From Chloranthus sessilifolius (lineage: Eukaryota > Streptophyta > Magnoliopsida > Chloranthales > Chloranthaceae): a stretch of DNA of 64,000 nucleotides. The stretch lies in contig CM037588.1 of NCBI GenBank assembly GCA_021018995.1, positions 146,959,725 through 147,023,724 of the forward strand, read 5' to 3'. Positions 18,162 through 59,539 of this stretch are shown in pieces. Position 1 is the first letter of the stretch. Every line of letters starts with the position of its first letter. The position numbers and the translations under genes are program-made. The notes below the pieces were generated by a model. That model had not been told where the DNA came from. It made no database searches and saw only the letters and a list, made by a program, of their open reading frames with translations.

Positions 18162-18369
18162 TGTAATATCCAGAAAAATTAAGCATTGAACTTTGACATT
18201 GGGATCCGTGCCCGACTGGTCATGGGTTTGACCAAGTGATAGTCAAGCAGTGGACTCATGAAGTTATGTACTAAGATGAGATTAGTGTGGCCTAAGTGTA
18301 GAGTATTGTGTTAAGTTGCAGTCACATACACCTATCTCTAGTGTATGTGTTTAACACACAAGCGGGAGA

Positions 18370-18384
18370 GTAAATATAAGGGTT
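18370..18384 (+). promoter_or_regulatory. Likely LTR TATA box
   Basis: AAATATAAGGG about 210 bases into the LTR, conserved as GATATAAGGG at about 53710 (minus strand) in the right LTR of the large element. Position suits a U3 promoter. Confidence 0.45.
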
Positions 18385-20248
18385 TAATAACCCTATTTCT
18401 CCCTTTTTGTTTTGAGCTATTGAAGAGAGAGTTAAGAAGAGAGAGAGAAAAGTATGGAGGAGTTATGAGGGCTAGAGATTAATACAAATCAAGAAGAGGA
18501 TGGTGCATTGATTGAAGGATTCAACGCGTTAGGATCGTTGAAACGAAAAGCTGGAACCCTAGCCATTCCAACCTAGATCTTGATCAATTTGAGGATTGAT
18601 TGAAGGTGAGTTTTAAATTAATGTAATGCATAGAGTGTGAATGATTAAATGTAGTCAACTGTGCATAAATGGATAGATAAAAGGCTTAGAAAAGAAAGGG
18701 AAAATATTTGGAAGAACAGCCCAAAAGGGGGCTGAATCTGGCCAAATCAATTAATCTAAATTGGGATTCGATTACTCGATTTTGACCCAAAAGTTGAAAA
18801 GTCATGAAAGCCCGATTTCGATTAATCGAATTGTATTTCGATTAATTGATTTTGATTTCGATTAGTCGATTTGGAAATCGACTAATCGACTAGGTACCTC
18901 CAGTGGCTGGAGAAAAGAGACTTGGAGAAATCAACTAATCGAGTTTGGAAATCGATTAATCGATTTTGAATTTTGATTAATCAATTTAGGATCGACTAAT
19001 CGATTTCAAAATTTCAATCACTCGAATTGAGAATCGACCTTACTATATGAGAGACTTCGATTAATCGATTTGGGATCGATTAATCGAATTTGAATCTCGA
19101 TTAATCGATATTGAAAATCGATTAACCGATTTGGGTTTCGATTAATCAATTTTGGGAATCGATTAATCGACTTTAGCAGTTTTACTTAACTTTATAATTT
19201 TCCTTTGAAATTCATGGAGGGTCTAGGACCTCCTTCATTACATCTTTAGTGATGTATTGCATGTGTTATGATATACCATAGGTGGTACGCGTGAGAGCGA
19301 GCACAAGGAGCCGCGTGAGACCTTGATGCTTGGACCTTCAGAGAATTGAAGTAGGGAACACCTTGAACATGTACTTTAATTTCAAGAGCATGTATGTAGT
19401 GATATAATTATCAGATTTAAAGTTGTTTTAACTATGAAAAACTTTATGAAAATGGGTGCGTGCGTGACGCCAAGAATGTGATAAAGACATCTGTGTGATG
19501 CAAGTAATTAAGAACAAGTAATCTAATGAGATTGAGACATCCCCAGGGGATGAGAAAGTAATAAAGGCATCAGGTGTGATGTGGGTATGTATACTTCCCA
19601 GGGATATATATATATGATTAAATAATTACTGTTGAGGCCTAACTGATATAAGATAGCACACTTACACGGTGAACAACTATATGTAAAGCACATGTTATTT
19701 TTGTTATTTGAGGTTTGATAGGATACCCCACCGATGTGGCGGGATACCCATGACTGAAGCGGCAGGATATCCGTGACCGGTAAGGCGGTGAATCTGTACA
19801 CCAGTACGGAGGTTTATCCGTAACCATAAGCACATCCTAGGGATATTGAGTGATATTTAATCCCGCCGCCTAGTGAAAAGGGGCTTGGGTCGTATTCCCA
19901 GGGAATACTTTTATAACAACTATCTATTTAGACGACGATGAAGGGTATCTCATCGGGGCTCGATGCTATATTGCTCGGGGATTACTTAAGTTGAAGATTT
20001 ACGTTTTGCTTTAGGCCTGTTTAGTGTCATTCATGATTACATCAATAGTAAAGTAAGGCATGCAATGTACCAATAAAATTGAATGTAAATCATCTGCTTT
20101 TAAACGGTTTTTCTAGCAAATGCATAGACTCATCATGCTTTGAATATCATGGAATATATGTGAGTTTTGATTTATATGTTCATTGTGTTTGTTCCCTATT
20201 GAGTTAGGATGTAGCTCACCCTTTAGACTATGCGTCGCAGGTCCATTG

Positions 20249-20344
20249 ATGGCAGCTGTAGAGGCTTTGGGAGACGTAGATCCGGGTGATTCGGATTACG
20301 TACCTGGAGATGAGTTGGAGCCTCCACCCGAGGACTTCCTCTAG
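20249..20344 (+). other. Short acidic reading frame in the LTR (31 codons)
   Basis: An ATG-started frame, MAAVEALGDVDPG then DSDYVPGDELEPPPEDF and Leu-stop. It follows a CAG/GT that looks like a splice acceptor or exon junction. The same frame, with related residues, is visible in four other LTRs: 11256-11370 (GDSEYFPREESEPSPERFF, stop), 26120-26220 and 51735-51835 (DSDYVPGDELEPP, stop at the same place), and 27240-27345 (DPDYSPGEDLEEPHPEDCF). Only this copy starts with ATG. The others may be read from an upstream exon, or the frame may be a relic of a coding exon. Function unknown. Confidence 0.4.
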
Positions 20345-20766
20345 GAGACTCTGCTGTGTACTTTGACAGAGAGTAGTTTTTGAGAGCTAGTTGTACGGCT
20401 TGGTATGTCAAGCCTTCTTTTCGTTAAACATGTAATTAAATTAGATTATTCTTTTGGGGAACCATCTGGGGTGATCTGTTTATCACCGATGGTTCGGGTC
20501 GGTTCTATGTTCATGCAGTGGCATGAAAGTAGAATTGTCTTTTACATATGCCAGTTGGGCATATTAACTGTTTTCGCTTTATGAGATTATTTGGTTTATT
20601 TATTTAATTGTGCTTGATATACCAATGTTCCGTGCTAAGTTTTGGGGTACGATCTGGAGGATCGTACTGATGGCACGAGTTTCGAGGTATCGAAATCCGG
20701 GGGTTCACACGTTATTTTTAAAAACGACAGTCATCAGCTGTTTTTTTCCCACATTTTCACGTAGTG

Positions 20767-25755: not shown

Positions 25756-28700
25756 TGTCACAGCCCGGATTTCGGTACCCTGAAACCCATGCCATCAGCA
25801 CGATCCTTCAGACCGTGCCCTAAAACTGTGCACGGAACATTGGTATAATAAGCACAATTAAATAAATAAAGCAAATAATTTCATAAAGTGGAAACAATTA
25901 ATATGCCCAACTGGCATATGCAAAAGACAGTTCTACTTTCATGCCTCTGCATGAACAGAGAACCGACCCGAACCATCGGTGATAAACAGATCACCCTAGA
26001 TGGTTCGCCAAAAGAATAATCAAATTTAATTACATGTTTATCAAAATAAAGGCTTGACATTCCAAGCTGTACAAATATGCTCTCAAACTACTCTCTGTCA
26101 AAGTACACATCAGAGTCTCCTAGAAGAAGTCCTCGGTTGGAGGCTCCAACTCGTCTCCAGGTACGTAATCCGAATCACCCGGATCTACGTCTCCCGAAGC
26201 CTCTACGGCTGCTATCAATGGACCTGCGACGTATAGTCTAAAGGGTGAGCTACATCCTAGCTCAATAGGGAATAAACACAATAAACATATAAATTAAGAC
26301 TCACATATATTCCATGATATTCTAAGCATGATGTGTCTATGCATTTGCTAGATAACAGTTTAAAAGCTGATGAATTTCATTCAAGTTTACTGGTAATTAG
26401 TATGTCTTACTTTACTATTGATTTATCATAAATGACACTGAACAGGCCTAAAGCAAAACTTAAATCTTCAACTTAAGTACTCCCTGAGCAATATAGCATC
26501 GAGCCCCAATGAGATACCCTTCATCGTCGTCTAAATAAACAGTTGTTATAAAGTATTCCCTGGAAATACGACCTAAGCCCCTTTTCAGTAGGCGGCGGGT
26601 TAAAAACTCATCTCAACATCCCTGGGATGTGCTTACTGTTATGGATAAACCTCCGCACTGGTGTATGGATTAGCCACCGTACCGGTCACGGATATCCTGC
26701 CGCATCAATCGTGGGTATCCCGTCATGTCGGTGGGGTATCAGTCAAATCTCAAATAACAAAAATAACATGTTCTTTACATATAGTTGTTCAGCGTGTAAG
26801 TGTGCTATCTTATATCAGTTAGGCCTCAACAGTAATTATTCAATCATATATATATACTGTGACAGCCCAGATTTCGGCTCCCCGAAACCCGCACCGTCAG
26901 TGGGCTGGCGCTAAGGTTGAGCCCCGAACGGATTACATCGCGTCTCAAAATGCACAGCGGAATCTAAGCAGAACCATTGCGAACTCATAACATAACAAAA
27001 TAATGAAACACCATCATTCATCCCAGAAACCCAAAAGACGGTTCTAATTTCATAAGAAAGCTTATGGAAAAAGAACCGTTGAGAACCACCGGTAAGGGCC
27101 TTTCCTTACCGAACATGGTTCAACAAAATCAATCACTTATACCATTTAGAAGCCATCTCTCTCTCTCTCTCTATCCAAAACAAACCAAAATTTATTACAT
27201 GACTTAGGGCCGGACCTACCCAAGTCTAGCGCAAAGGAAACAATCCTCGGGATGGGGCTCCTCAAGGTCTTCGCCGGGGGAGTAGTCCGGATCTTCCTTC
27301 TCCGGAATCTCCGCCTCAACACCTTCACCTGAACCTGTGACATTTGTAAAGGAATGAGCTTCATCCAAGCTCAGTAGGGAAAAACTAATAACATGCTCAT
27401 TATGACATCAAACACATATCTTATGGCATAACGTACACAAAGTTGTTTTGAACACATGCTGGGTGGTGATTTCATAGCCTTAACATACATATGCAATGCT
27501 AATGGAATCATGAATATGCTTATATTTCTATTCCGACATAAGAAAGAAGAAAAACTTAAAAGTGTTTACTTAAAGTACTAGAATGAGGAACTATAGCCCC
27601 AAGCCCTCGATGGAATACCCATCATCGTCACTCACATGAGTCATTTAAACATAAATCCAAGGTCCCGTAGAGTTGGACAATTGGCCGAACATAATTACCG
27701 TTATACGGTAGGAATCACAAAGCACATATCACAAAAGGTGTACGGATTGGCCACCATACCGGTCACGGATATCCTGCCGCGTCAGTCACGGTTATACCAC
27801 CGCGTCGGTCAGGTATTCACATAACCTTAAAACCAAAAGTGCATACATATAGCTTATCGTCGTGTGAAGTGATAATTATAATTTACATCAGAAGTCGGAA
27901 CAAAGTATGAAAGTCTCTTATACACGTATCACATGAATCTCGAAGATTCCATAAGTCTCACATGTTTCCAAATCATACATAAACACATACCTCATTTCTT
28001 CAAAACCATAAACGGAAATCATAAAATCGGATCGAAGAACGTATCATAATATAACACACATGTTTATGAAATAATGCACATGATATCAAGTTTTCCCTAC
28101 CTCACAATCTCGACTCGAGCGCACTCAAGCCGCCGCAAAGGTCGGTTCTCCGTACTCACAAAGGTTCACCTAAACATGATCATTTTATCCATTAGAATGA
28201 TGCAAAACACATAGCTAGAGGTCCCCTTGAAATCTCAAAGTAAAAACTAACCAAACGCAAAAATCTGGGAAATTCGATCGATCGAATCCCTGTTTCGATA
28301 GATCGAAATCCATTTTCGATCGATCGAAATAAATTTCGATCGGTCGACCTCTCTCAAAAACTACAAAACATATTCTCATTCGATCGGACGAATTTTCAAA
28401 TCGATCGAAACAAAATTCGATCGATCGAATTCCACAGAAGGCATTTTACCTTAACACAGTTCGATCGGACGAATCCCAATTCGTTCGATCAAAATTACAT
28501 AATTCGATCGAATGAATTTAATTCGATCGGTCGAATTCTCACAACAGAATTCTATCATTCTGTTTCTATACAATTCGATCAATCGAACTTTAGGTGTCGA
28601 TCGATCGAAAAAATTTCGTTCGCTTTCGATCGAACGAATTTCTCAGGACTTCGTTTCTTCCCATTTTTAATGCCATTACGATCAATCAAACCATAATTCG

Positions 28701-30748
28701 ATCGATCAAAATGAGCAGATTTCGGTCATTTTTGGGTTTTTCACCCCCGATCTCTTCTCACTTTGAATCGATCTCACTTTCTTGAGATTCTCATATGAAC
28801 ACACACCAATTTAACTCTCCATAACACAAACTAAAACACACATTCATATTCCATACCTTGCTCCAACGAATCCTCTTTCGTGGTTCAAAATCGGAACTAA
28901 GGTTCCTCTAATGACAGCTGTTCATCCTCATTCCCATTAGATCAATCGCTTCTTTCTGCGCTATCAGCTCGTTCCCACGTTGCTCACAAGCATTCAATGC
29001 CCTAAAGTTTTCCTCTCTATCTCTCTTTACTCCCACTGATCAGTATTAACTAGGTTATTTAACGTCCTAGGTTTCTATTCATAGTCTAGCTCCTACGTTT
29101 GGGTGTAAAACAGCTACACTGAAGGGACGTGTGTGAGAGTTTCAAGCTCCCAGATCCAGTCTATATAAGATTGATCCGGTCCGTTGGATTTGATCTATAG
29201 ACATTACATCATTGTTAAAGGGGGTCCTCGGTGCATGATCCGTCGGCACGCGCACCGAGTCTCACGGATCATGGCCCAAAAGGTTGGGGCGTTACATATA
29301 CATCCCTAGGATGTATATATACTCGCATCCACTGATACCTTTATTACTTTCTCATCCCCTGGGGATGTCTCAATCTCATTAGATTACTTGTTCTTAATTA
29401 CTTGCATCACACAGATGTCTTTATCACATTCTTGGCGTCACGCACGCACCCATTTTCATAAAGTTTTTCATAGTTAAAACAACTTCAAATCTGATAATTA
29501 TATCACTACATACATGCTCTTGAAATTAAAGTACATGTTCAAGGTGTTCCCTACTTCAATTCTCTGAAGGTCCAAGCATCAAGGTCTCACGCGGCTCCTT
29601 GTGCTCGCTCTCACACGTACCACCTATGGTATATCATAACACATGCAATACATCACTAATGATGTAATGAAGGTCTTGGACCCTCCATGAATCTCAAAGA
29701 AAACTTAAAAAGTCAAGCCAAACTATCAAAGTCGATTAATCGATTCCTAAATCGATTAATCGAAATACGATTCGATTAATCGATTCCCAAAATAGATTAA
29801 TCAAAACCCAAATCGATTAATCGATTCCCAAAATTGATTAATCGAGATTCAAATTCGATTAATCGATTAATCGAAGTCTCTAACATAATGAAGTCGATTC
29901 TCAAATCGAGTGGTCGAAAGTCTGAAATCGATTAGCCGATCCCAAATCGATTAATCGAAATCCAAAATCAATTAATCGATTTCCCAACTCGATTAGTCGA
30001 TTTTCCCAGGTCTTGTTTTCCAGCCACTGGGGGTACTCAGTCGATTAGTCGATTTCCAAATCGACTAATCGAACATCCAAATCAATTAATCAAAATTCAA
30101 TTCGATTAATCGAATCGGGCACTCATGACTTTTCAACTTCTGGGCCAAAATCGATTAATCGAATGCCAATTTTGATTAATCGATTTGGCCAGATTCAGCC
30201 CCCTTTCGGGTTGTTCTTCCAAAACTCATTTCTTTTCTTTCTAAGCCTTTAATCTACTCTTTTTAACCCTACTTGACTGAATTAAATTTGTCTACAATAC
30301 ACGCATTCACTTTAATTAAAACTCACCTCAATCAATTCTCAAATTGATCAAGATCTAGGTTGAAATGGCTAGGGTTCCAGCTTTTGCTTCAACGGCTCCA
30401 AACGCGTTGAATCCGGCAATCAATGCTCCATCTTCCCTCAATCCAACCACAATAACTCCCTGACAATTAATCTCCTCTTTCTCTCTCTCTTCAACAACCA
30501 AAACAAAAGGATTCTAGGGTTATTAAACCCTTATATCCTCTCTTTTAGTTTCGGTGTTTAGCGCATACCCCAGAGATATGTGTATGTAGCTGAAAACCAA
30601 TACTATTCAACACTCCTAGTCACAATTGTAGCACATCAGTTCATCACTTCATGAACTCAATGTTTGACCATCACTTGGTCAAACCTATGATCAATCGGGC
30701 ACAGATCCCGAGGTCAAAGTCAAACGGTCAATTTTTCAGGATATTACA
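25756..30748 (-). repeat. 3' LTR of element A, split by a solo LTR
   Basis: Starts TGTCACAGCCCGG and ends GGATATTACA in plus coordinates. After removing the inserted solo LTR (26858-29296) and its duplicated TATAC, about 2549 bp remain, equal in length to the other family A LTRs. Contains the hairpin (26247-26263), the short acidic frame and the TCGATTAATCGA array (29735-30185). Confidence 0.9.
26858..29296 (-). mobile_element. Solo LTR, Tekay-type (family F), inside the LTR of element A
   Basis: Begins TGTGACAGCCCAG and ends GGGGCGTTACA, flanked by TATAC (26853-26857 and 29297-29301). 2439 bp. Shares conserved blocks with families A, D and B, but its palindrome array (28265-28710) uses TCGATCGATCGA. 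A probable TATA box (CTTATATAGAC on the minus strand) is at about 29160-29170. Confidence 0.9.
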
Positions 30749-31041: not shown

Positions 31042-32571
31042 TCACGTCGTCCCCTCTCCTGGCTGATCTAATGCAGGGGTGGGCTCTAACTGGACTTGTG
31101 GCTCTGGCTGGACTGGCGGTGGGTGGGTCGTCTCCGTAGGCTGTAGTGGTACCGAGCCGGAGGCATCGGCAGTAGACGTACTCCCATGGAAAATAGCACC
31201 CGCATGGAAGGCAGTCCGACCTACTATCCACTCCACCTCCTGCGCGAGGCGCTGCTGGTAGTCCAACGGATAGATGTAGCACAGTGTATGGAATATCAAA
31301 AAGTCCATCTGTCGGTTCATCCTCTCATTGTTGGCCTCCATCCTGGCTAACACGTCCTCGATAGTGGGCGCCGGGCGAGCCGCTCGCCGGCGATAAGATG
31401 TAGGTGTCGTTGCCGCAGACCACGTTGGCAGCGTAGGTGAGGCAGTGGTATGGGAGGGTGTCCCCTCCACTGGTGGATCATCTGGGTGTGCCCCACCCAC
31501 AGGTGGGTCCTGATGTGGTGGTGGGGGTGGTGGAGGTGCTAGTGGTGGTGCTGCTGCTGCTGGTGCAGGACCCTGAGCCAGTAGGGTCCGCTTGAGTAAA
31601 TTGTAACTACGGCTCCATGAAGAGTTTGAAAACGTCTTCACTCGGTCCGTAGCCCTCTCCTCATGGGGCGATATAGCGTATTTTGGAGCGTTTGAGTAAC
31701 ACTCCAGCATGCTCGAGATGAGCCGAGCATAGGGCATATTTTCTTTAGGCCTCAAGTTGCCCTTCATCAACTTGCCCTTAATGCATCTCATCCCCTCGAG
31801 GATGACCATCGTGGCATCAAACCAACGGCCACAGAAGGCCGCGTAAAGTGCCTGCTGCACCATCTCCACCCGCTCGGTGTCGTGACTCAACGGGTAGAGG
31901 TTGCACTTGATTATAGAATCAAGCATCCACATATAATGGGGAAGGTCGACCCTCCTAATGGAGGATCTCGACCCTTTCTTCCCATTGGTCATCCGGGTCA
32001 TGATCTCCTCAAATCTCACCTCTTCCTCGAAGGGTGGGAAGAGGGTGGTCTCGGGTACAAAATTGAGGTGACATTCAAGCACCTCGTGGATGTGGCGATG
32101 AGTGAATGTGTAGTCACGACCCTCTATCTTGGTCGTGACGATGTCGTCGGTAGGGTCGTCCATCAGCCCTTGGTAGAATAGTCTAACCAACCTAGGGTAG
32201 TAGGACCCACGGATTGGTTTCTAGATGTTACCGAGACCGGCTTTTAGAAGGTAATTACGAGCCCATTGGGTCTCGCCCGGTACATGGGGGTTTGTAAATA
32301 GGGTTTGATCGATAATGTACTCGATCTTGAATATTTTAGCCGTCCACCACTCATTGGGTTGAAGTACATTGGTGGGTGGTGGTGGCATAGGCGTAGACTC
32401 GCGTGAAGACTCACGCGAAGACGCGCTCGTCGAACCAGAGGTGGTCTCCGATGCTGACGGTGATGGAGTCCTCACCGGTGATGGGGTAGGTGGTGGCGGT
32501 GCGGCATTCTTACGCCGGACCGGAAGTTTAGAGGTTGTCTTTTTGGAAGACAATCGAGTTTTAGGTGGCAT
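31042..32571 (-). pseudogene. Extra ORF of element A (between integrase and 3' LTR)
   Basis: A sense-orientation coding zone downstream of pol, not part of the standard gag-pol set. It has a basic N terminus (MPPKTRLSSKKTTSKLPVRRK region), a Ser/Thr/Pro-rich linker, a conserved core (NEWWTAKIF, WARNYLLKAGL, RLFYQGLMDD, VTTKIEGRDYTF), a proline-rich stretch and a helical C-terminal part (ANNERMNRQMDFLIFH). The core is homologous to the zone at 57768-59312 in element B (KEWWASKTF, WAKGYLQKLGL, RLFFQNLRWGD, VTTIDGFEYKI). It resembles the domain labelled putative plant transposon protein in plant retroelements. Role unknown. The zone is broken but mostly readable. Confidence 0.65.
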
Positions 32572-32781
32572 CTTGGTAAAAATCCAACAAAACTAGGGTT
32601 TCTATAGCTTGAAATGGAAAGAAAATGAAAACTAGGGTTTTACCTTAGGCGTTTGATTCGATTGCAAACGATTTCGATCCGAAATCGCAAAACCCTAGGT
32701 GCTTGGATGGTTGAAGGAAGAAGAAGAAGGCGCGGAAAAGAAAAAGCTCCAATGATTTCGAATGGGGAGAAATACCCCTCA

Positions 32782-32795
32782 ATTTATATATATAT
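32782..32795 (-). promoter_or_regulatory. Probable internal TATA box upstream of the extra ORF (element A)
   Basis: The minus strand reads ATATATATATAAAT, lying between the palindrome array (first word at 32803) and the start of the extra ORF (32571), 212 bases before its ATG. Element B shows the same arrangement at 59519-59526. Confidence 0.45.
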
Positions 32796-32801
32796 GCCCC
32801 G

Positions 32802-33430
32802 GCTCGATTAATCGATTTCCAAAGTCGATTAATCGAGTTTCAAAATTAGGTTAAGCCGCATAAAATCGATTAGTCGAAACTCAAAATCGATTAATCGAAA
32901 CCATTTCGATTAATCGAAACCATTTCGATTAATCGAAATCATATTCATTTAAATTTTTAAGTTTTGGAGCTCACTGGCGTGAGCCAGTCGATTAATCGAA
33001 ATTCACTTCGATTAATCGAAATCCCAAAATCGATTAAACGAGATTCACTTCGATTAATCAAAATCGTGCAGTCCTTCAAATTTTTTCTAAAATCCTTAAG
33101 TTACTCAATTAGTCGAACTTCCAGTCCGATTAATCAAAAATCTAAATTGATTAATTGAATTCTTCCTCGATTAATCGAAATCATATAAAAATCCTTCAAG
33201 TTCTTCTAAAATTCTCAAGTTACTCGATTAATCGAATGCCCAATTCGATTAATCAAAAACATAAATCGATTAATCGAAACCAAAATCGATTAATCGAAAT
33301 TTCACTTTGTCATTTTTCTGAATCTTGTTCCAATTTCCACTCACTGGTGCATGCCAGTTGACTAATCGATCAAAATCGATTAATCAAATTCCCAAATCGA
33401 TTAATTAATTTGAAAATCGATTAATCGGTT
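32802..33430. repeat. TCGATTAATCGA palindrome array, element A internal
   Basis: About eleven exact and roughly ten near copies of the 12-bp perfect palindrome TCGATTAATCGA, spaced irregularly by about 8-40 bases of low-complexity DNA. The same word forms the arrays in the family A LTRs. Confidence 0.9.
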
Positions 33431-33829
33431 TTGATCAGATTCTTCAGATTTAAAAATTTAAAAATTTTTCATGTCTCTTTGATTTCTCATGGTAAACTAT
33501 GACCAATTGGTCATTGGTTCTACAAAATACATCATTATGGCCATGTTGTGACCATGATGAATTCCAATTTCGCGTTCAACACAGTGTTTGAGACTCTATG
33601 TGGATAAAATTATTCTCTTAAGTAAATTGATCATAAGATCGACATTGAATTACAACACATAGTTTAAATCCACAAACATACTTGCGGTGATACAATTTCG
33701 ACTCTCAAGCTGTCGCAAATAAGCTTGGATACTGTTCTTTCACGTCGGCCTCTCGTTCCCATGTAGCTTCCTCGGCCGGATGATGCTTCCATCGGACAAG
33801 TACTAATGGAATCACTTTTGTTCGCAACA

Positions 33830-34440
33830 CTTATTCTTTTCGATCTAAAATCTCCACCGGCTCTTCGATCATAGTCATGTCCTCATGCATCTCAAATGAT
33901 TGATCGCTCAACACGTGATCAGGGTTATTAAGGTACTTCCTGAGCATAGACACGTGGAACACATTGTGTACCTGATCGAATAACGGTGGCAATCCAATGC
34001 GGTAAGCAACTTCCCCTACTCGACCCAAAACTTCAAACTATCCAAGATAGCGGGGACTGAGCTTCCCTCTCTTTCCAAACCTCATCACCCCCTTCATAGG
34101 TGACACTTTCACAAACACGTGTTCACCCACCTTGAAGTCTACACTCGTCAGCTTGATATCGGCGCAGCTTTTCTATCTGCTCTAAGCCGCTTTGAGTTTT
34201 GCCCTTATCATCCGAACATAGGTGGCATTATCTTCAAGCATTTCGGGTCCCAAAATGAATTTCTCACCTGTTTCTTTCCTATTGATGGGCGATCTACATC
34301 GCCGTCCATAAAGAGCTTCATATGGTGCCATCCCAATGCTCGTCTGAGAACTGTTGTTATATGCAAACTCGATCAAGAGTAGATGCTGATCCCACGATCT
34401 TTGCAATTCCAACATACATGCCCTAAGCATGTCCTCAATG
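33830..34440 (-). pseudogene. Integrase C-terminal zone of element A
   Basis: Contains the end of the catalytic domain (SSQTSIGMAPYEALYGRRC) and the C-terminal GEVAYRIGLPPLFDQVHNVF and FHVSMLRKYLNNPDHVL words, typical of chromovirus integrases, followed by an EEPVEILDRKE start of a chromodomain-like tail. Fossil and broken. Confidence 0.75.
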
Positions 34441-37086
34441 ATCTGATTGACCCTCTCAGTCTGTCCGTCAGTTTGCGGATGGAATGCCGTACTGAAATCT
34501 AGTCACGTTCCCATTCCTTCTTGAAACTTCTTCCAGAACTTTGATGTATACAATGGGTCACGATTGAAAATAATGCTACTCGAAATCCCATGCAAATGAA
34601 CAATCTCTTTCATATACAGCTCTGCCAGTCTTCCCGCCATGTACATCGTGTTGTAAGGCAAGAAATGCACTGACTTGGTCAATCGATCGACTACTACCCA
34701 GATGACATTGTACTTCTTTGCAGTACACGGTAGCCTAACGATGAAGTCCATAGAGATCGATTCCCACTTCCATTCCAGTATAGGTAGAGGCTGCAATAGA
34801 CCTGCGGGGTGTCTACGATCGATCTTCACTTGTTGGCACGTCAAACACCGTGACACGTACTCTGCCACATCTTGTTTTAAGCCTCTCCACCAGTAGTTCT
34901 TTTTTAAATCTTGATACATCTTTGTGCTTCTCGGGTGGATAGCATAGCTTGATTTGTGTGATTCATTCATAATTGTTTGCTGCAAATCGGCATTGTCCGG
35001 AATACAGAGGCGGCCCTTGAACAATAAGGAACCATCCTCCTTGATTGAAAACTCAGATGTAATGCCTTCAGTTACATCTTGACGAATCTTTGTTAGCGCC
35101 GGGTCTTTCATCTGTAGTTCATGGATATGCTCAAATATCATCGGTCTCACTGAGATATTAGCCAAGAAGGCTCCTGTAGCTTGTGACTCAATGTTTGCAT
35201 CATATAGTGTCAGATCTTCAAACAGTTTCTATCTGTGCATACCCAAAATTAAACTAGCCAATTGAACAGAACTCTTTCGACTCAAGGCGTCGGCTACTAC
35301 ATTAGCCTTGCCTAGATGGTACTGTATAGAACAGTCATAGTCTTTGAGAAACTCCATCCATCTGCGCTGCCTCATATTTAGTTCCTTCTGTGTAAACAGA
35401 TATCTGAGGCTCTTGTGGTCGGTGAAAATCTCAAACGTCTCACCTTACAAGTAATGTCTCCAAATTTTGAGCGCGAAAATGATCGCTGCTAATTCCAGGT
35501 CATGTGTCAGATAATTCTTCTCATGATCCTTCAACTGTCTAGATCCATACGCTATCACCTTTTTGTGTTGATTAAGCACACAGCACAACCCAGTATACAA
35601 AGCATCACTATACACTGCAAACCCTCCACTGCCTGAAGGAATCGCTAATACTGGAGCTGAAGTGAGTCTCTTCTTGAGTTCTTGAAAACTCTTCTCGCAT
35701 GCCTCACTCCATTCGAACCTTGCATCTTTTCGTGTAAGTCTCGTGAGTGGTCCTGATATCTTCGAAAAATCCTCAACGAAACGTCGATAGTAACCTGCTA
35801 ATCCAAGGAAACTACGGATGTCGGTCACGGTCTTTGGTTGCTCCCAATCCACTACTGCTTCGATCTTTGCTGGATCTACAGTGACACCAAGCTTTGAGAC
35901 GACATGCCCCAAAAAGCTAACTTCTTCTAACCAAAACTCACATTTGCTAAGCTTGGCATATAGTTGGTGTTCACGTAGAGTCTGTAGGGCTACTCTCAAG
36001 TGCTTTTCATGTTCTTCTTCTGATTTTGAATAGATCAGGATGTCGTCCACAAACACTACGACACAAGAGTCTAGGTGTGGTTTAAACACCCTATTCATCA
36101 AATCAATGAATGATGTCGTGGCATTTGTCAACCCAAACGGCATCACTAGGAACTCAGTGTCCGTATCAAGTCCTGAATGCAGTCTTCTGAATATCCTCTG
36201 CCTTGACTCTCAACTAATGGTATCCCGATCTCAGATCGATCTTAGAGAAATACTTCGCTCCTTGCAGTTGATCAAACAAGTCATCTATCCTAGGCAAAGG
36301 ATATCGGTTCTTGATGGTAAGTTTGTTCAATTGTCGATAATCAATGCACAGACGCATTGACCCATCTTTCTTCTTTACAAACAAGACCGGCGCTCCCCAT
36401 GGAGACACGCTCGGTCTAAAAAATCCCTTGTCCATTAGCTCTTGTAGCTGCTCTTTCAACTCCTTCAACTCAGCAGGAGCAATTCTGTATGGTGCTTTAG
36501 AAACAGGCTCCGTTCCTGGTGCTAAGTCGATGGCGAATTCTATCTCTCTCTCTGGAGGTAATCCGAGTAACTCCTCCGAAAATACATCGGCGAAGTCTCG
36601 CACAACTGCTATCTCAGATATAACATTCTTCTCCTCTTTATCTTCCTTCAAGAATGCCAAGTATCCACTACACCCTTTTCTGATCAATCGCTCGGCCCTG
36701 ACTGTTGAGATAAGTGGTAGGTGTGTCGACCTCTCTCCTTGAAATCTAAACGATCTCCTCGTGTTGGGTTTGAAGATGACGACCTTACTCTTGCAATCTA
36801 TCGTCGCACAGTGGGTCGATAACCAATCCATGCAAAGGATCACGTCGAATCCTTGCATGTCTAGCAGAATTAGGTTCGCCGGTAGCTCAAAGACATCTCC
36901 ATCCATGACCCTCACGATCACGGAGTTGCAACCCTTTTCAGTATCAACCGATTTCCCAGTAGGAACAGTCACGGTTAAAATGAAGTCTAACTCCTCTGGG
37001 TCGACTTTCATCCTCTTCGTGAAGCAAGGGATAACAAATGAGTGGATAGACCCCGAGTCTATCAACACTCGAGCTTCGTATGTCAC
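34440..37086 (-). pseudogene. Protease, RT, RNase H and integrase core zone of element A
   Basis: In the element's own order: aspartic protease ([14 protein letters not shown]), reverse transcriptase ([38 protein letters not shown]), RNase H ([30 protein letters not shown]) and integrase zinc-binding and catalytic start (CLTCQQVKIDRRHP, WESISMDFI). All words are standard Ty3/gypsy. Domain order RT before integrase fits the family. The zone carries several breaks and is treated as a fossil. Confidence 0.85.
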
Positions 37087-37329
37087 GTCGCTTCTCTTCT
37101 TATAAATTTGTAATGTACCTAATCATACATATACATATATATCGTATTTATCATCATACTAGAATTTATCACATGTAAGTTTTTCTTATATTTTCTATAT
37201 GGATGCACCTTCTCTATCTAAAAATTTTAAGAATTAAAATTCTTTATTGAAAAGGAAGCTCACCTTGAATGACATCGTTTGTATTCTGAGCCTCTTGAGC
37301 TGTGATTGCGTAGGCTCTCCCTTGGACGA

Positions 37330-38150
37330 TCGGCTTCCTTACTTGTATCAATCATAGAATAGGTACTGAAGCCGTCTTCCCTTTGTTCATCTCAGGGCAT
37401 TCTTTGATCAAGTGGCCCACCTTGCCACATTGAAAGCAACCCTGAGTGCCTATCCTACAATCCGCTGTCTTGTGAGGCTTGCCACACTTGGCACAAGTCT
37501 CACGAGCTGTGGAAGAAGCTGCTCGAGAAGCCCCCTGTGTGACTGTAGCACCGGTAGTGATAGCAGGGCTCTCGTAGCGTATTGGTCTCCCCGACGCGAG
37601 CAATGGAAATCTCTGCTGGTTTCTCTGCTGCGCCGGTCTCCCATAACCTCCTTGGAACGGTGGTTTCTGATTATTTGGTATGAATCTCGGCTTTTTGTTC
37701 ACCGATCCATAATTCTCCGTACTGCTCTAATCAGTGTTCCACCTTTCTTGTTGCTCCCTCTAGCGGTACTTGTTATTTTCTTCCTCTACCACCAAGGCTT
37801 TGCTCATGACCTCCCCATAGGTCCTCAGTTGGAATGGTGCTACTCCTCCCCTCACGTCCGGCTTCAAACCTTGCTGAAACCTCTTTGCTTTCATCATATC
37901 GGTGATGACGTAGTCGGGCGCAAAGCGAGCGAGTCGCATAAACTCGACTCCGTATTCTCTCACAGTCATCTTCCCTTGAACCAATTGAAAAAATTGAACC
38001 TCCATCCGGTTCCTCACCACTTCAGGGAAGTACTGTTTATTAAATTCCTCGACAAACTCATCCCATGTCCAGGGCATATCTGGAGTCTCCTGAGCCCTAG
38101 TTCGTGAAACGGACTTCCACCAAGGCCCAGCCTCTCCGTCTAGCATGTAG
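37330..38150 (-). pseudogene. gag zone of element A, downstream half
   Basis: Capsid-like retrotransposon gag words (GEAGPWWKSVSRTR, WDEFVEEFNKQYFPE, VREYGVEFMRLARFAPD) followed by a CX2CX4HX4C zinc knuckle (CFQCGKVGHLIKEC). The gag is split here by the Athila-type element; its first half is at 51001-51279. Confidence 0.85.
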
Positions 38151-38155: not shown

Positions 38156-39811
38156 TGATCGATTTTAAATATAACCCTTGCAAGTGCACAAGATCTATTG
38201 CAGTATGGCAAGAACAAAGGTGTCGAACCCACAGGGAAATCTTGAATTTTAATTAATTCTTTCAGAGATTTAAAAACATCCCTAAGGAAGTACCAAAGGG
38301 CATATTCAATTTACTAAAAATTTATCACACTTTTTCTAAAAGCAAGAAAAAATAAATTAATCTAAACAACTAATTACTGATAAATCTAAGAACAATATTT
38401 AAATGAGATCAAGGAATATGCTACCCCAGATTTGTACCCCTTTTCTATCATTAAAACCCACAGTTTCATTAAAGCATCATTCACACCATCATTCATCTAT
38501 AAAAATGATTCGAAATAAAATATGATCATCAATCCGGCATACCCTATCTAAAAACAATGACTCAGCCTATCATCGCGGTATGAGTTATGTAAGAAGCATA
38601 GCGTATCTCATGATGTTTAGATCACAACAGTAAAAACATAATCGCTCCGCAGCCTAGATCAGTCTGCAGGTCCAGATCTAGCGATTATAGCCGTTGATAC
38701 GCGCAATCAACGATTATAAGAAGCATTCAATATATTTTTAATAGCACAAACTTTTAGCAAAACGATTCTATTATGACAATAAATCGACTATGGTATTAAT
38801 CATAAATAAGGGTACTTATCTGGGGATCGCATCTTCCCCGATCTACTGATTTAGTTGCTCATCTTTGGTGTATGATCTCCTTGTTCATTCAAAGTCATTC
38901 CTCTTTTTATTTCTTTCAAAGATCTTTATTTACAATGCCTTTTCCTAAATACAATCTATGCTTTCATGAATGTAAAGGAAAAATAATTCAAATCCTAGGT
39001 ACAATCTACCCAGATGGAACCCTAGAAGAAGGAGAAAGAATAACTCTTGAAAAGATGCCAAGAGGAGCCTAAAACCAAAAATAATAATAATGAATAATAA
39101 TCTTCTACAAAATTCTCTCCAAAAATTCTCAAAAAAGAAAAGCCAAAACTAACTCTCTAATTATCTACCTCTAACTCTTTTTTCTAATTCCTATCTCTAA
39201 TTCCTTTTTTCTAATTCCTATCTCTAATTCCTATCTCTAATTACTGTCTCTAATTCTTGTTTTTAATTCCTATCCCTAATTCCTCCCCCTTTTTCCTCTC
39301 TTTTTAATTCTTTTTTCGAAGGGTTTGATCCGCTTTAAATAGAGCCAAAGTTTTCCAGCCGCAGAGGTGTTCCAACTCGAAAATTTAGGGTCGATTAATT
39401 GACCCAATAGGGTCGATGCATCGACCTCCCAGATTTTCGTGAATTTCTGCCGAACTTTGCATCAGACACTGCTTCGGTATTTTAGCCATAACTTTCTGTC
39501 TCGAATTCGCATTGAGGCGATTCTTACGCCGTTGGAAAGCTGACAGAATGCTCTACAACTTTTGTGTTTTGACAATTTCATAATACAGCCGTCTTGAAGG
39601 TCCAAATTGATCTGCAAGTTGCACCAAGTTCTCGATGACCCAAAGTTACAATGTTTTGACATTATTTTCAAAATTCTTGGGCTGTTTTCTGCACTTGGCT
39701 TGTATTTACCTGAAACACTTCAAATCTAATAATTCTTATCAAATAACCTTCATCGGATAGCTAAATATAGGTATTTAGGGGTGAAATATCATCATATTTC
39801 ACTACTCATCA
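38156..39811 (-). repeat. 3' LTR of the Athila-type element
   Basis: 1656 bp, paired with 49123-50773. Contains the palindromic word TCGATGCATCGA near 39414 and a pyrimidine-rich tract of CTAATTCCTATCT repeats (about 39160-39310). Confidence 0.9.
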
Positions 39812-41886
39812 CACCCCCAAACCTACACTTTGCTAGTCCCCGAGCAAAGCAAACTAAAGAAAATAAATGCCACTTTCGTAGGGAGCACGATTGTACTTAG
39901 CGTGTGCAACAAGCCTTTAAAATCCTAGGTGATCCCTAGTGGAGGAGTTGTGTCTCCTGAGGGTTTACAGTGAAGTTACCCACAAACTTCAATAAATTCC
40001 AAACCATCGGCAAAATTGAGTTTTCAAAACATGATTTTTTATAACATATATATTATTCAAAAACAAAAACATTAATTGTTTCAATATGTGAATCATCAAT
40101 CTTAAATATTAAAGTCATGTCAATCATGCTAGTATCCATTCAAATTAATCTAATGCTCAAATCGTTAGATAACTCATCCATTCATGCTTACTCGTGAAGT
40201 GTGTGCATACCCAAACCAAAATTCATTCATCTCAGAACTAGTTCAAACGGGAAACCATCGGACCTGTTGTTTAGACTCAATCTTCACTTTAGGTATACTC
40301 TTGAAATAAAATCACTCCGATGATGGGTAAGTTTTCGCACACATGTGAGAGATCAATACAAAGCAAATAAAAAGGTCTCACATAATAAATGAAGCACGAT
40401 GCAATCAATGAACAAAAATAAATCTCATAAGAAGATGCTTGTATATCCTAAGCATGTCATATCAAGTATCATAAGTATCATATATTTACTCTCAACAAGG
40501 TAGTTACCAATGCAAAATCAGATCATGAAGGTCTTTTGTAGGGTTGTAATGGGGCTCAGGAAAGGGTAAGAAAGAAAGGGAATTGAGATTCAAAATTTCT
40601 GAGAAATCGGAAAAGAAACAAACTTCTGATTTTTCTATTTCTCTTCTTTTTCTTTTCTAATGTCTCACTATTTTTCTCAATATTTTTCTATTTTTCTCAA
40701 CTTTCTTTTTCTTTTGAAGCACCTCATATTTTTCATTATTTTTCACAATTTTTTTTTTTCTCCCCCCTTTTTCTTTTATATTTTTGCCATACACTCTCAG
40801 TAAACACCACAACTCAGTATCTCTCTACTTACTCTCTTTTCGTTCATTTTCATCTCTCGTTCCTAATTTCTCAGAAATAAGAAGGGTAAAGCTGAATTTT
40901 CAAAAATGGTGAAGGGTTAAAGGTTAACGTGGCTTATCAAAGAATGTATAAAGGTAAATTTTCCAATAGGCTCAAAGGGGTACTAGAATGATAAATTTAT
41001 ATGAGGTGGAGCATTTAAGCACAAACGAGCCAAAGATGACCTTCAATCATGTCCTTAAAAGATGGTAACCTTGCCTATTTGTCTTGAGTAGATATACAGT
41101 ACATTCTAACACAATAATATGAATTTAATTTCATAAAAAGTCACAAGCCAAAGTAAAGTGTATGAGATTATTCCAAATAATTCGTATTCAAAGAAAACTC
41201 CGAGTTTATGTATTCACTCATCAATGACGGGAAATTAGCTCTAAAACTTACCGGGTTTAGTCTCCACTAAGAACCTAAGATTCACCGTTCAAAACAGTTC
41301 ATCGATTTCTGAGTCTTAGCTTGGTATTAGTGTAAAAATTCTAAGCATGAATATCAAAATTACCCACAAAATATCACATTAAGCTTCATTATCCTAGATA
41401 CAAGCATTCAAAATCTGACATCGATATTCTCAAAATTAAATTCACATGCATCATCAACTAAAGTTTGAAAACTATCGAAAAATAATTCATATATGATGGT
41501 TCAAAAAAAATATTTATTATTTTTTTTTTTTTTATATGATGAAAAATAAGAAAGTGACGTAAGATAGAGAATCATGCCCCCAAATCTAAAAATGACAATG
41601 TCCTCATTGATTGAAATAGGTATTGCACCCCCAAACCTGTTGAAAAGTACCTCAACACAAAGATCAGGTGCAGAGAATATGTGCATAAAATTAGAACATG
41701 ACCAAAAATAGATTGAAGGTAATGTGGCTACACTAATTTGGAAATTAAAAACAACCTAAACTAAACTAAAAACTAATACTCTAGAACAACCAAAAACAAA
41801 AATGAAAACGAAAATAAATAAAATACACTGGGTTGCCTCCCAGGAAGCGTTGAGTTTAAGTGTCGACAGCTCGACCTCTTCATTGA
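39812..41886 (-). other. 3' region of the Athila-type element, no long frame
   Basis: Begins with the purine tract (minus strand GTTTGGGGGTG at 39812-39822). AT-rich, with no long reading frame and no recognisable envelope-like sequence. Holds T-rich low-complexity DNA around 40620-40790. Confidence 0.6.
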
Positions 41887-47540: not shown

Positions 47541-49122
47541 GATTAAATGGTAGCAGATGTGGGTGATGAGAACGAGTAAAGCTCATACACCACGCTCACA
47601 AACAGGGATTGAAGAATCCAAAACAAATCCACAAAATAGGCTCAATCGATTGCAGCAAAGGTCTGAATCGATTGACAGAAGCTCACTTAAAATTTCACAG
47701 AAATGACTTTATCAGTCAATCTATTGAAGAACCGTTCTCAATCGATTGAGGTTCAAAGGTCAAAGCAAGTTAACACAAAAATTTCAGCCGAAATGGCAAA
47801 CACAGAATTTTTGTCAATCGATTGACAGAGGAATGTCAATCGATTGAAAGAAAAGCAAAGATCACAACAGAGAATATTTCAGTCTCAATCGATTGAACCT
47901 GAAGCTTCAATCGGTTGAGTTCTAATATGAACAGTGGCCAAAATAAAAAGAGAAGAAAAGCAAAACAAGATAAATTAATTTAAAATTTTTTTTTTTTTTT
48001 TTTTAAATTCGAATTTCAAAAATTAAAATTAAAATTAGAAATTAAAGTTTATAAATTTAGGATACCTTCCTTAGGAAATTTAGGAATCTTTTATTTTTTC
48101 CCTTATTTTAAGAGAGAAAAATAAGGGAAAAAAGATTTTGCAAATCAAAAATCTAAATATTAGTTTTTTTTTTTTTTAAATTAAATTTCAAATTTTTTTT
48201 TTAATTTTTTTTTTAAATTAAAATTGAAATTAAAATTTGAATTTAAAATAAAGAAATTTTTTTTTTTTTTTTTAATTCGAATTTCAAAAATAAAAATTAA
48301 ATTCGAAAATTAAAATATAAAATTTAAATTTCAAAACCTAAAGACAATCCTACAAAATCCTATAAAATCTTACCTAAAAGAGAAAAAGAAGGGAGAGACT
48401 AGAAAGATTCCTACAAAGCCTATTTCAAGAAGTCCCACAAAAATTAATAACTAGATTTTAGAAAATCCTACAAAATATCTAAAAGAGGAAAATAAGGAAA
48501 ATAAACTCCTAAAAAATTTAAAATAAGAAATCCTAAAAATCTAAACTTCCTAAAAGAACTCCATAAAACTTACCTAAGAGAGAAAAATAAGGGAAAAAAT
48601 TTCAATTTTTTTTTTTTAATAATTAAAATTAAAATTCGAATTTAAATTAAATTTAAATTTTTTTTTTTTTTTTTTTTTTTTAAATCCGAATTTCAAAAAT
48701 TAAAATTAAAAATTTAAATTTTAAACCTAATGGCAATCCTACAAAATCTTATCTAAAAGAGAAAAATAAGGGAAAGAATAAAAGATTCCTAAATTTTCTA
48801 AAGAAGGTATCCTAAAAATCAATACTTCCTAAAAAGACTCCTACAAAATCTAAAATAAAAAGTCTAAAAATCTCAATTCCTAAAAGACTCCTACAAAATC
48901 TAAAATAAAAAGCCTAAAAATCTCAACTTCCTAAAAGACTCCTAAAAAAAAAAAATACTTACCTAAGAGAGAAAAATAAGGGAAAGAAGATTTTGCAAAG
49001 CAAAAATCCAAAAATTGACTTTATTTTATTTTTTTTTAATTTTTTTTTAATTCAAAACACAAAAATCCCTAACCGAATTAATCAAAATTTCGCCGATTTC
49101 CCCGGCAGCGGCGCAAAAAACT
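47541..49122 (-). repeat. Leader of the Athila-type element: palindrome array and splice-like repeats
   Basis: Between 5' LTR and gag. 47640-47925 holds about eight copies, four exact, of the palindrome TCAATCGATTGA. 47960-49060 is AT-rich with at least six copies of a word that on the sense strand reads CTTATTTTTCTCTCTTAG; in about three copies it is followed directly by GTAAG(T/A). 49100-49114 is the primer site (sense GCGCCGCTGCCGGGG, resembling the tRNA-Asp complement used by Athila). Confidence 0.75.
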
Positions 49123-50773
49123 TGATCGATTTTAAATGTAACCCTTGCAAGTGCACAAGATCTATTGCAGTATGGCAAGAACAAAGGTATCGAACCCACA
49201 GGGAAATCTTAAATTTTAATTAATTCTTTCAGAGATTTAAAAGCATCCCTAAGTACCAAAGAGCAGATTCAATTTACTAAAAATTTATCACACTTTTTCT
49301 AAAAGCAAGAAAAAATAAATTAATCTAAACAACTAATTACTGATAAATCTAAGAACAATATTTAAATGAGATCAAGGAATATGCTACCCCAGATTTGTAC
49401 CCCTTTTCTATCATTAAAACCCACAGTTTCATTAAAGCATCATTCACACCATCATTCATCTATAAAAATGATTCAAAATAAAATATGATCATCAATCCGG
49501 CATACCCTATCTAAAAACAATGACTCAGCCTATCATCGCGGTATGAGTTATGTAAGAAGCATAGCGTATCTCATGATGTTTAGATCACAACAGTAAAAAC
49601 ATAATCGCTCCGTAGCCTAGATCAGTCTGCAAGTCCAGATCTAGCGATTATAGCCGTTGATACGCGCAATCAACGATCATAAGAAGCATTCAATATATTT
49701 TCAATAACACAAACTTTTAGCAAAACGATTCTATTATGACAATAAATCGACTATGGTATTAATCATAAATAAGGGTACTTATCTGGGGATCGCATCTTCC
49801 CCGATCTACTGATTTAGCTGCTCATCTTTGGTGTATGATCTCCTTGTTCATTCAAAGTCATTCCTCTTTTTATTTCTTTCAAAGATCTTTGTTTACAATG
49901 CCTTTTCCTAAATACAATCTATGCTTTCATGAACGTAAAGGAAAAACAATATAAATCCTAGGTACAATCTACCCAGATGGAACCCTAGAAGAAGGAGAAA
50001 GAAGAACTCTTGAAAAGATGCCAAGAGGAGCCTAAAACCAAAAATAATAATAATGAATAATAATCTTCTACAAAATTCTCTCCAAAAATTCTAAAAAAGA
50101 AAAGCCAAAACTAACTCTCTAATTATCTATCTCTAATTCTTTTTTTTAATTCCTATCTCTAATTCCTTTTTTCTAATTCCTATCTCTAATTCCTATCTCT
50201 AATTCCTGTCTCTAATTCTTATTTTTAATTCCTATCTCTAATTCCTCCCCCTTTTTCCTCTCTTTTTAATTCTTTTTTCGAAGGGTTTGATCCGCTTTAA
50301 ATAGAGCCGAAGTTTTCCAGCCGCAGAGGTGTTCCAACTCGAAAATTTAGGGTCGATTAATTGACCCAATAGGGTCGATGCATCGACCTCCCAGATTTTC
50401 GTGAATTCCCGCCGAACTTTATATCAGACACTGCTTCGGTATTTTAGTCATAACTTTCTATCCCAAATTTGGATTGAGGCGCTTTTTACGCTGTTAGAAA
50501 GCTGACAGAAAGCTCTACAACTTTTGTGTTTTGACAATTTCATAATACGGCCATCTTGAAGGTCCAAATTGATCTGCAAGTCGCACCAAGTTCTCGATGA
50601 CCCAAAGTTACAGTGTTTTGACATTATTTTCAGAATTCTTGGGCTGTTTTCTGCACTTGGCTTGTATTTACCTGAAACACTTCAAATCTAATAATTCTTA
50701 TCAAATAGCCTTCATCGGATAGCTAAATATAGGCATTTAGGGGTGAAATATCATCATATTTCACTACTCATCA
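49123..50773 (-). repeat. 5' LTR of the Athila-type element
   Basis: 1651 bp; starts TGATCGATTTTAAATG and ends ACTACTCATCA in plus coordinates. Near-identical to 38156-39811. Confidence 0.9.
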
Positions 50774-51000
50774 GCTGCCCAACGGACGCTCTCGTCCTCC
50801 GTGCACGTCAGTACACTGAATACCTTCTCCATCTCACTCAGCCAATGCTCTGCCACTATGGGCTCTGCCTGTCTAGAAAAGCTAGGAGGTCTCATCCTCC
50901 TAAACTCAGTAAAAGTAGAAGATGCTGGCGGTGTCGGAGCCACTGGAGGTGTCGGTGGCTGATGCTACTCGTGGGCAGTGTGAGCTGCCAAGGATGCTGC

Positions 51001-51356: not shown

Positions 51357-51370
51357 GCTTTGATACCAAT
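51357..51370 (-). other. Primer binding site of element A
   Basis: The minus strand reads TTGGTATCAAAGCA next to the 5' LTR, close to TGGTATCAGAGC, the complement of initiator tRNA-Met used by many plant gypsy elements. Confidence 0.75.
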
Positions 51371-52458
51371 AGTGACAGCCCGAATTTTGGCACCCCGAAA
51401 CCCGTGCCATCAGCACGATCCTCCAGACTGTGCCCCAAAACTGTGTACGAAACATTGGTATAACAAGCACAATTAAATAAGTAAAGCAAATAATCTCATA
51501 AAGCGGAAACGGTTATTATGCCCAACTGGCATATGCAAAAGACAGTTCTACTTTCATGCCTCTGTATGAACAGAGAACCGACCTGAACCATCGGTGATAA
51601 ACAGATCACCCCAGATGGTTCGCCAAAAGAATAATCCAATTTAATTATATGTTTATCAAAATAAAGGCTTGACATACCAAGTCATACAAATCTGCTCTCA
51701 AACTACTATTTGTCAAAGTACACAGCAGAGTCTCCTAGAAGAAGTCCTCGGGTGGAGGCTCCAACTCGTCTCCAGGTACGTAATCCGAATCACCCGGATC
51801 CTTGTCTCCCATAGCCTCGATAACTGCTATCAATAGACCTGCGACGTATAGTCTAAAGGGTGAGCTACATCCTAGCTCAATAGGGAACAAATATAATGAA
51901 CATATAAATTAAGACTCACATATATTCCATGATATTCTAAGCATGATGTGTCTATGCATTTGCTAGAAAATATTTTAAAAGCTGATGAATTTCATTCAAG
52001 TTTACTGGTAATTAGTATGTCTTACTTTACTGTTGATTTATCATGAATGACACTGAACAGGCCTAAAGCAAAACTTAAATCTTCAACTTAAGTAATTCCC
52101 GAGCAATATAGCATCAAGCCCCGATGAGATACCCTTCATCATCGTCTAAATAAATAGTTGTTATAAAGTATTCCCTGGGAATACGATCCAAGCCCCTTTT
52201 TATTAGTCGGCGGGGTTAAAAACTCATCTCAACATCCCTGGGATGTGCTTACTGTTACGGATAAACCTCCGCATGGTATATGGATTGGCCGTCGTATCGG
52301 TCACGGATATCCTGTCACGTCAGTCATGGGTATCCCACCACGTCGGTGGGGTATCCTATCAAATCTCAAATAACAAAAATAATATATGCTTTACCTATAG
52401 TTGTTCACCGTGTAAGTGTGCTATCTTATATCAGTTAGGCCTCAACAGTAATTATTCA

Positions 52459-52508
<50 letters not shown>

Positions 52509-53931: not shown

Positions 53932-54195
53932 TGCTTGATAAAAAAATTCATGAGTTTTCATTTTTTCCTATTTGGATGAATCTGGCCATTCACATCATGT
54001 CTTCCTACTTATTTTCTGATTTATTCCCTTTTCTGTGTTGAAAGTAAAGTGCTTTAGGGGGTTTATGCAGAAAAATCTTATACTTTACTTATTTTCATTA
54101 TAAGCTGGCAGTTCTATGTGTTCATGCAAAACAAGGTATGATCCCCCTATCTGTTATATGTGAGTTTTCCATTTGACAATTGGTGCCCACTATAA
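53932..54195. other. Unassigned DNA between elements A and B
   Basis: Continuation of the target DNA of element A, rejoining 25755 across the insertion. T-rich and intron-like; no feature recognised. Confidence 0.4.
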
Positions 54196-55124: not shown

Positions 55125-55215
55125 ACTGGTCTGTCATTGTGAAAACAACAACATTGATCAGTACATATAGATTGTAAAAACAATCCGTTATGAACCCATA
55201 GTTCAACCTAAAGCC

Positions 55216-55230
55216 TAGGCTCTGATACCA
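55216..55230 (-). other. Primer binding site next to LTR B
   Basis: The minus strand reads TGGTATCAGAGCCTA, complement of initiator tRNA-Met, four bases from the LTR. Confidence 0.85.
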
Positions 55231-55234
55231 AGCA

Positions 55235-57336: not shown

Positions 57337-57367
<31 letters not shown>

Positions 57368-59526: not shown

Positions 59527-59539
59527 ACACAAAAGTGTG

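Follow-up and report, generated by a model that had tools for sequence, protein, structure and literature searches.

Both halves of the arrangement described here have precedents: the two-site layout is already known from Sireviruses, and family-specific repeat recognition is already known from the VANC proteins of VANDAL transposons. A paper from 2016 reportedly describes palindromes in the long terminal repeats (LTRs) of maize Sireviruses. Element-specific palindromes that lie in the LTR and again upstream of an ENV-like gene were described by Bousios et al. 2010 (PMC2829016), who called them Sirevirus-specific. According to that article, they occupy the upper half of the LTR before the TATA box and recur before the extra gene, their consensus varies by element, and the linker copies are found only where the ENV-like gene is present. 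The locus analyzed here, a 64,000-base window of the Chloranthus sessilifolius genome, holds retrotransposon families (A, B and F) with palindromes in the same two places; however, Sireviruses are Ty1/copia elements, whereas A, B and F belong to the chromodomain-bearing Ty3/gypsy elements. The Sirevirus motifs mostly contain a CGG-CCG core, which is missing from the words of A, B and F as well as those of two further families in the window, C and D, and the A, B and F words are AT-rich, unlike the CGG-CCG motifs (PMC2829016). Beyond what that article describes for Sireviruses, the present elements show a link to the Pfam family PF20167, an internal TATA box after the array, helical spacing of the words, and conservation of the words against their spacers.

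The second precedent is VANC, a transposon-encoded protein that has been proven to recognise family-specific arrays (Hosaka et al. 2017, PMC5735166); anti-silencing by VANC in VANDAL elements is also treated by Sasaki et al. 2023 (PMC10398659). As presented in the former article, the VANDAL system resembles ours in that short family-specific words are arrayed in noncoding regions and change between related families, and in that an extra gene of the transposon encodes the recognising protein, of which the accessory gene described below is the putative equivalent (PMC5735166). VANDALs are DNA transposons, however, whereas the elements here are LTR retrotransposons; VANC motifs are non-palindromic and share one orientation, whereas our words are palindromic; and VANC binding and demethylation are proven (PMC5735166), whereas DNA binding by the accessory proteins here is a prediction.

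An extra gene beside gag-pol is a likeness that our elements share with the published plant Ty3/gypsy elements that carry additional ORFs. TRP28 is such an ORF in Retand (PMC11963269); in sunflower, the additional ORF of Athila matches PF20167 and has a predicted nuclear location, and the extra gene of Tekay has a 5′ position and matched no known domain (PMC11728184); and the extra gene of Grande has its own promoter (review, PMC7264820). The Grande and Retand genes, unlike those here, are antisense (PMC7264820, PMC11963269). One paper on extra genes of plant retrotransposons names VANC as a parallel. Palindromic operator arrays beside these genes are not reported in the accessible portions of the literature on additional ORFs of plant Ty3/gypsy elements, and among open-licence papers judged by title there is none on such arrays in chromodomain elements, which is weak evidence of absence. 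New here are the occurrence in chromodomain elements, the different words, the PF20167 link, and the anatomy of TATA box and phasing.

The anatomy of the window was determined by self-comparison, end sequences and Pfam scans (Table 1). The integrase of A, B and F ends in a chromodomain (PF00385; 2.3e-6 in F, with the values for A and B in Table 1). The Tekay label of these three families was given in the original prediction, and we take it to fit their chromodomain, primer-binding site (PBS) and long LTRs; we likewise assume that the PBS motif of A1 and B is of the iMet type. In the sense direction, A1 consists of the 5′ LTR with its array, the PBS, gag, pol with the chromodomain, the internal array, the accessory gene, and the 3′ LTR with its array. 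The F solo LTR splits the 3′ LTR of A1, and element C splits its gag region. Element B (55231-63796) follows the same order from pol to LTR. The LTR arrays of A1 and B both sit in the upstream half of LTRs of ~2.5 kb, and the distance from the last internal word to the ATG of the accessory gene is 233 bp in A1 and 238 bp in B.

Table 1 Features of the retroelements and word arrays in the 64,000-base window.
Feature	Position	Strand	Details
D solo LTR	10878-13336	-	TSD GTATA
D array	about 12400-12700	-	imperfect TCGTTC/TCGATC words
Solo LTR A2	18162-20709		TSD CGTTA
A word array, solo LTR A2	18818-19170	+	6 exact copies, at 18818-19159
Element A1 (Tekay-type)	25756-53926	-	TSD GATCT; self-comparison and end sequences
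F solo LTR, within A1 3′ LTR	26858-29296	-	TSD TATAC
F word array	28274-28608	-	4 exact TCGATCGATCGA, at 28274-28597; 10 with <=1 mismatch
A word array, A1 3′ LTR	29732-30162	-	9 exact copies, at 29732-30151
A1 accessory gene	31042-32571	-	ATG at 32571; interrupted by one in-frame stop; lies between pol and 3′ LTR
A1 TATA-like box TATATATATAAA	32783-32794	-	9 bp past last internal word
A1 internal array	32804-33430	-	11 exact words in 32804-33297, at 32804-33286; weaker ones to ~33430
A1 pol	33708-37556	-	protease, RT, RNase H and integrase pieces; stop-broken
A1 chromodomain	33708-33830	-	PF00385, 2.4e-6
Nested element C	LTRs 38156-39846 and 49123-50805		LTRs 96% alike
C leader array	47642-47918	-	4 exact TCAATCGATTGA; LTR counterpart absent
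A1 PBS	51357-51368		1 mismatch to iMet-type motif
A1 5′ LTR	51372-53926	-	self-comparison, ends
A word array, A1 5′ LTR	52941-53344	-	7 exact copies, at 52941-53333; 583-986 bp into LTR
B LTR	55231-57659	-	PBS 55219-55230, exact iMet-type motif
B word array in LTR	56539-56895	-	13 exact TGATCGATCA, at 56539-56886; 765-1121 bp into LTR (from 57659)
B accessory gene region	57768-59306	-	ATG at 59306; split into frames here, open in other copies
B TATA box TATAAAAAG	59518-59526	-	17 bp past last internal word
B internal array	59544-59700	-	6 exact TGATCGATCA, at 59544-59691
B integrase end and chromodomain	59905-60342	-	PF00385, 1.2e-5

Several other features of the window were seen. The leaders of the accessory genes (A, 32571-32800; B, 59306-59540) contain GGTAAA...AG just 5′ of the ATG, which by eye is leader-intron-like. 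The B LTR region (54147-57659) has a PBS and a gag piece to its left and the accessory gene to its right, and it therefore resembles an LTR in the middle of a B tandem; the gag piece adjoins A1, and 54209-54333 is 97.6% like 63876-64000. Element C has its array in the leader, directly 5′ of gag, and LTRs without it, making it a one-array variant, and these LTRs carry a non-palindromic array of 13- and 26-bp TCTCTAATTCCTA units at 39154-39316 and 50116-50278. A piece of a host gene with a match to SGT1 (PF07093, 9.2e-21) lies at 7021-7506.

The original prediction held that each retroelement family has a perfectly self-complementary word of its own, arrayed both in the LTR and internally. For A and B, its description of a word common to both sites is borne out, as are the counts it gave for B: the A word, TCGATTAATCGA, has 33 exact copies in the window, confined to A arrays, with 22 in three LTRs and 11 in the internal array, and the B word, TGATCGATCA, has 19, confined to B, with 13 in the LTR and 6 internal. 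The palindrome array expected for F was also found, and within the window its four exact words are restricted to the F LTR. AT repeats aside, no palindromic 10- or 12-mers in the window are more frequent than the A, B and F words. The top C-bearing palindromic 12-mer and 10-mer reach 33 and 34 copies, respectively, compared to maxima of 2 and 4 in 100 dinucleotide shuffles of the window.

The words differ by family, as had been proposed. When words are scored against arrays with up to one mismatch, the resulting table is nearly diagonal, with own-array scores of 13, 15, 13 and 17 for the A word, 12 and 6 for the B word, 10 for the F word and 8 for the C word, and with off-diagonal scores of 0, or of 1 where F or D is involved. 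The half-sites are TCGATT in A, TCGATC in F, TCGTTC in D and TTGATC in B. Self-complementarity holds for the words of A, B and F and fails for D, where the proposed word, ATCGAACGAT, is not self-complementary and has no occurrence in the window. The D array contains a single perfect TCGTTCGAACGA; the remainder is made up of mixed, imperfect words with TCGTTC, TCGATC and TCGATT half-sites, and the D word scores only 1 in its own array (up to one mismatch). A fifth word, TCAATCGATTGA, was identified in the leader of nested element C (47642-47918), with 4 exact copies and 8 at up to one mismatch, and the LTRs of C have zero copies even when one mismatch is allowed.

The assembly to which the window belongs comprises 2.17 Gb, and in it the A word has 241,617 exact sites, compared to 55 for a reversed-order control; the B word, searched as TTGATCGATCAA, has 65,226 sites, compared to 317 for its control. 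The arrays are genuine, genome-wide and far above chance. The individual loci described below are best-scored or hand-chosen loci and not random samples. A genome search with the B gene gave 37,750 candidates in a loose first look, of which 150 were scored and the best 30 cut out, one being the window's own B copy (L045). All of these best 30 have a TGATCGATCA array 5′ of the accessory gene. The 28 loci that could be oriented contain 4-6 exact words each, and TATAAA lies 17 bp past the last word in 25 of them and 40 bp past it in one, and is absent from two. Four B relatives, chosen from the list for differing identity (71-90% in the gene; L078 is the same place as L068), were read across both arrays, and in all four the word is the same, with 6-12 copies upstream and 14-22 on the side of the LTR. 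Both sites likewise share their word in two of two A relatives, chosen from those without a stop among 105 A copies, with 11-13 and 7-10 exact words.

Family F provides an out-of-sample case, as the prediction was made from the window's solo LTR and the internal array was then found. A genome search with the F LTR gave 40 scored copies, several of them paired ~10 kb apart, and in the full element delimited by one such pair, the 1.5 kb at the predicted internal place contain 3 exact and 7 one-mismatch F words and no exact A or B word. The order in this element is chromodomain, array, TATATATAAA and gene start. For D, one element was read over 500 bp where the internal array was predicted, and imperfect D-type words occur there, as in the LTR, a result that is compatible with the two-site layout and not clean. 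The proposed match between LTR and internal words thus holds in the window's A and B, in six of six further elements and in F; it is qualified by D, where the words are imperfect at both sites, and by C, where the array is found in the leader only. Overall, the observation of two-site word arrays is partly confirmed, and the interpretation first placed on it, a factor shared by both arrays, is partly supported.

The gene downstream of the internal array tentatively links these families to PF20167 (Transposase_32; curated Pfam cut-off, 45 bits), with scores of 37.1 bits (3.9e-9) for A1 and 15.9 bits for B, both under the cut-off, and no match in a scan of one B-type gene (L075). Two other sets of loci, G and H (see below), score above the cut-off at 56-67 and 53-54 bits, respectively (two scanned in H). 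In profile comparisons, the A and B genes are 40% identical over 265 residues (E 4e-46), A and H are related at E 7e-19, and the similarity of A and G is weak by itself (probability 23%, E 9e-4). The N-termini of the accessory proteins are basic in A, B and F. Unlike the VANC system as published, the accessory genes lack DUF1985 and DUF287, neither of which appeared in Pfam scans of the A, B, G and H genes (E 0.001 / E 0.1). A comparison of the A gene with a protein database produced 6595 candidates, none at E <=0.001, and PDB sequence searches with the A and G gene profiles returned best E values of 0.18 and 0.52.

A genome search for PF20167 gave 150 scored loci, the best 30 of which were used without choosing. 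These loci carry a different palindrome, ACGGACGTCCGT, as an exact 12-mer present at least three times in 28 of the best-scored 30. With up to two mismatches allowed, 29 of 30 loci have three or more words upstream of the gene and 26 of 30 have two or more downstream, and the matched PF20167 domain contains none in any of the 30. The total is 330 words, compared to at most 12 for palindromes built from shuffled half-sites (same loci and mismatches). A strict TATA[AT]A follows the array in only 11 of 29 G loci. In the one G locus scanned for its element type (L042), the gene follows a Ty1/copia RVT_2 domain (1e-45) on the same strand; the G word has the CGG-CCG core, and G looks like the Sirevirus case. 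Arrays and accessory gene co-occur in both superfamilies. Six further loci were taken from the 150 for unusual profile coverage, of which three have the G word (one, L043, is rearranged) and three make up H (L039, L040 and L041), where PF20167 genes have weak GCCTCGCGAGGC-like words upstream. The integrase end of L041, which has no Pfam match, is presumably Athila-like, and H is possibly a third lineage with the same layout.

Within the arrays, the words are two to four times less variable than their own spacers. The words of 29 B copies have a mean column diversity of 0.019, compared to 0.083 for spacers and 0.057 for flanks (words vs. spacers, permutation P 0.0002, or 0.03 for transversions alone), and the corresponding values for 28 G copies are 0.160, 0.355 and 0.206 (P 0.0001, likewise for transversions), all P values for diversity and spacing being too small because the copies are related. 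A second reference for G gives 0.127, 0.344 and 0.194. In both tests the words were set on a reference that was then left out; L009, in which the upstream word is absent, was left out of the G alignment, and L052 and L061 were included in the B test although unoriented by the TATA motif. The three A LTRs give 0.066 for words and 0.110 for spacers, a comparison that is biased because the words were defined on the copies compared. The spacing of the words is also regular: 24 arrays provide 317 spacings, of which 74% measure 18-24 bp, and the 80 spacings of 27-109 bp gather around multiples of 10.5 bp (R 0.33, phase 0.12 bp, Rayleigh p 2e-4; ten periods were tried, with the best fit at 10.25 bp) and do not cluster at multiples of 20-21.5 bp. 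Furthermore, sites with two changes are still perfect dyads in 13 of 55 cases in G, 2 of 21 in A and 1 of 14 in B, compared to ~3% expected. Simple slippage, which the original prediction had set against itself, is insufficient alone because the words vary far less than the spacers and the spacings track helical turns; together with the identity of the words at both sites, this makes a binding factor common to the two arrays the preferred reading.

Taken together, dyad words, phasing, conservation and a downstream TATA box typify operator clusters on which a dimeric DNA-binding protein acts at two promoters, and we lean towards a model in which such clusters couple the promoter of the accessory gene to that of the LTR, with the accessory protein as the likely factor. 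Each array would group dyad operators of 12 bp, most of them separated by two helical turns, that serve a dimeric DNA-binding factor specific to one retroelement family. Of the two clusters, one occupies the upstream LTR half, and the second immediately precedes the accessory gene's TATA box. The factor, most likely the PF20167-like accessory protein with its basic N-terminus, would bind its own promoter as well as that of the LTR and thereby couple the two, raising transcription or lifting silencing of its own family only. We infer binding, the identity of the factor and the direction of the effect from the arrangement of sites and genes. This arrangement favors the model in that A, B and F each carry the same word at both sites, the G word flanks its gene on either side, a TATA box and gene start directly follow the internal array in A, B and F, and A, G and H match PF20167. 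The putative binder is probably the accessory protein by association, since a related gene stands behind such arrays in different element types, the two-turn geometry is steady while the word changes, the words are the same where B-type genes share at least 71% and different at the 40% that separates A from B, and the N-termini are basic. Weighing against the model are the sub-threshold scores of A and B, the A-G homology that is weak alone, the weak arrays of H, the imperfect words of D, the small share of G loci with a strict TATA box, and the C array, which has no matching LTR array and no recognised accessory gene.

The most serious rival, although we judge it less likely, is that each family recruited a host transcription factor to both promoters, with the accessory gene, which has an internal promoter, as a passenger. 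It has to be taken seriously since C has its array without a recognised gene and since four Sireviruses without the extra gene retain the LTR motifs and lack the internal ones, a point that also counts against the operator model; in addition, Sirevirus motifs matched stress-factor sites in PLACE, as far as the published account describes them (PMC2829016). On the other hand, the words change by family against a constant background of two-turn geometry, TATA position and neighboring gene family, so that several host factors would need to be recruited in the same layout, and the word is identical in the LTR and internal arrays of one element.

We consider it very improbable that the arrays are passive tandem repeats, multiplied by slippage or unequal exchange, with words alike by descent and functionless. 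Units do recur at ~20 and 41 bp, A LTR copies differ by whole units, and VANC target repeats are described as growing likewise (PMC5735166). However, words were kept while spacers changed in the B and G copies, helical phase is maintained over long gaps, and Ty1/copia elements show the same layout built on an unrelated word. Moreover, CpG is expected to decay faster if methylated, so words holding CpG should decay faster under passive repetition, yet they vary less. The least credible explanation is that the palindromes function at the RNA level, such as in pairing between genomic RNAs or as small-RNA hotspots: self-complementary words could pair between two RNA copies, and maize Sirevirus LTR palindromes are described as small-RNA mapping hotspots (PMC5311732), but pairing would tolerate C>T above G>A on the sense strand, whereas single changes show no consistent bias (15 v 13 in A, 8 v 3 in B, 12 v 17 in G), and helical phasing and a TATA box fit DNA better.

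Extending the operator model, we tentatively propose that a cassette of PF20167 gene and operator array may be common to Ty1/copia and chromodomain Ty3/gypsy elements, possibly including Athila-type ones, and that its protein could be a sequence-specific dimer that counters silencing or activates, with a half-site that shifts by 1-2 bases from one related family to the next, making it the equivalent of VANC among LTR retrotransposons. No function has been established for the extra genes of plant retrotransposons, and an array that repeats the LTR array before the gene's own TATA box reduces the matter to one question, namely whether the accessory protein binds the word of its own family. If the proposal is true, a single genome would hold hundreds of thousands of operators of such a cassette, and selfish but contained activation would have a second solution beside VANC. 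One putative binding site is present ~240,000 times in this genome and could affect regulation near genes, and the abundant elements of large plant genomes would, if this is true, encode transcription factors of their own, with codes that differ by family.
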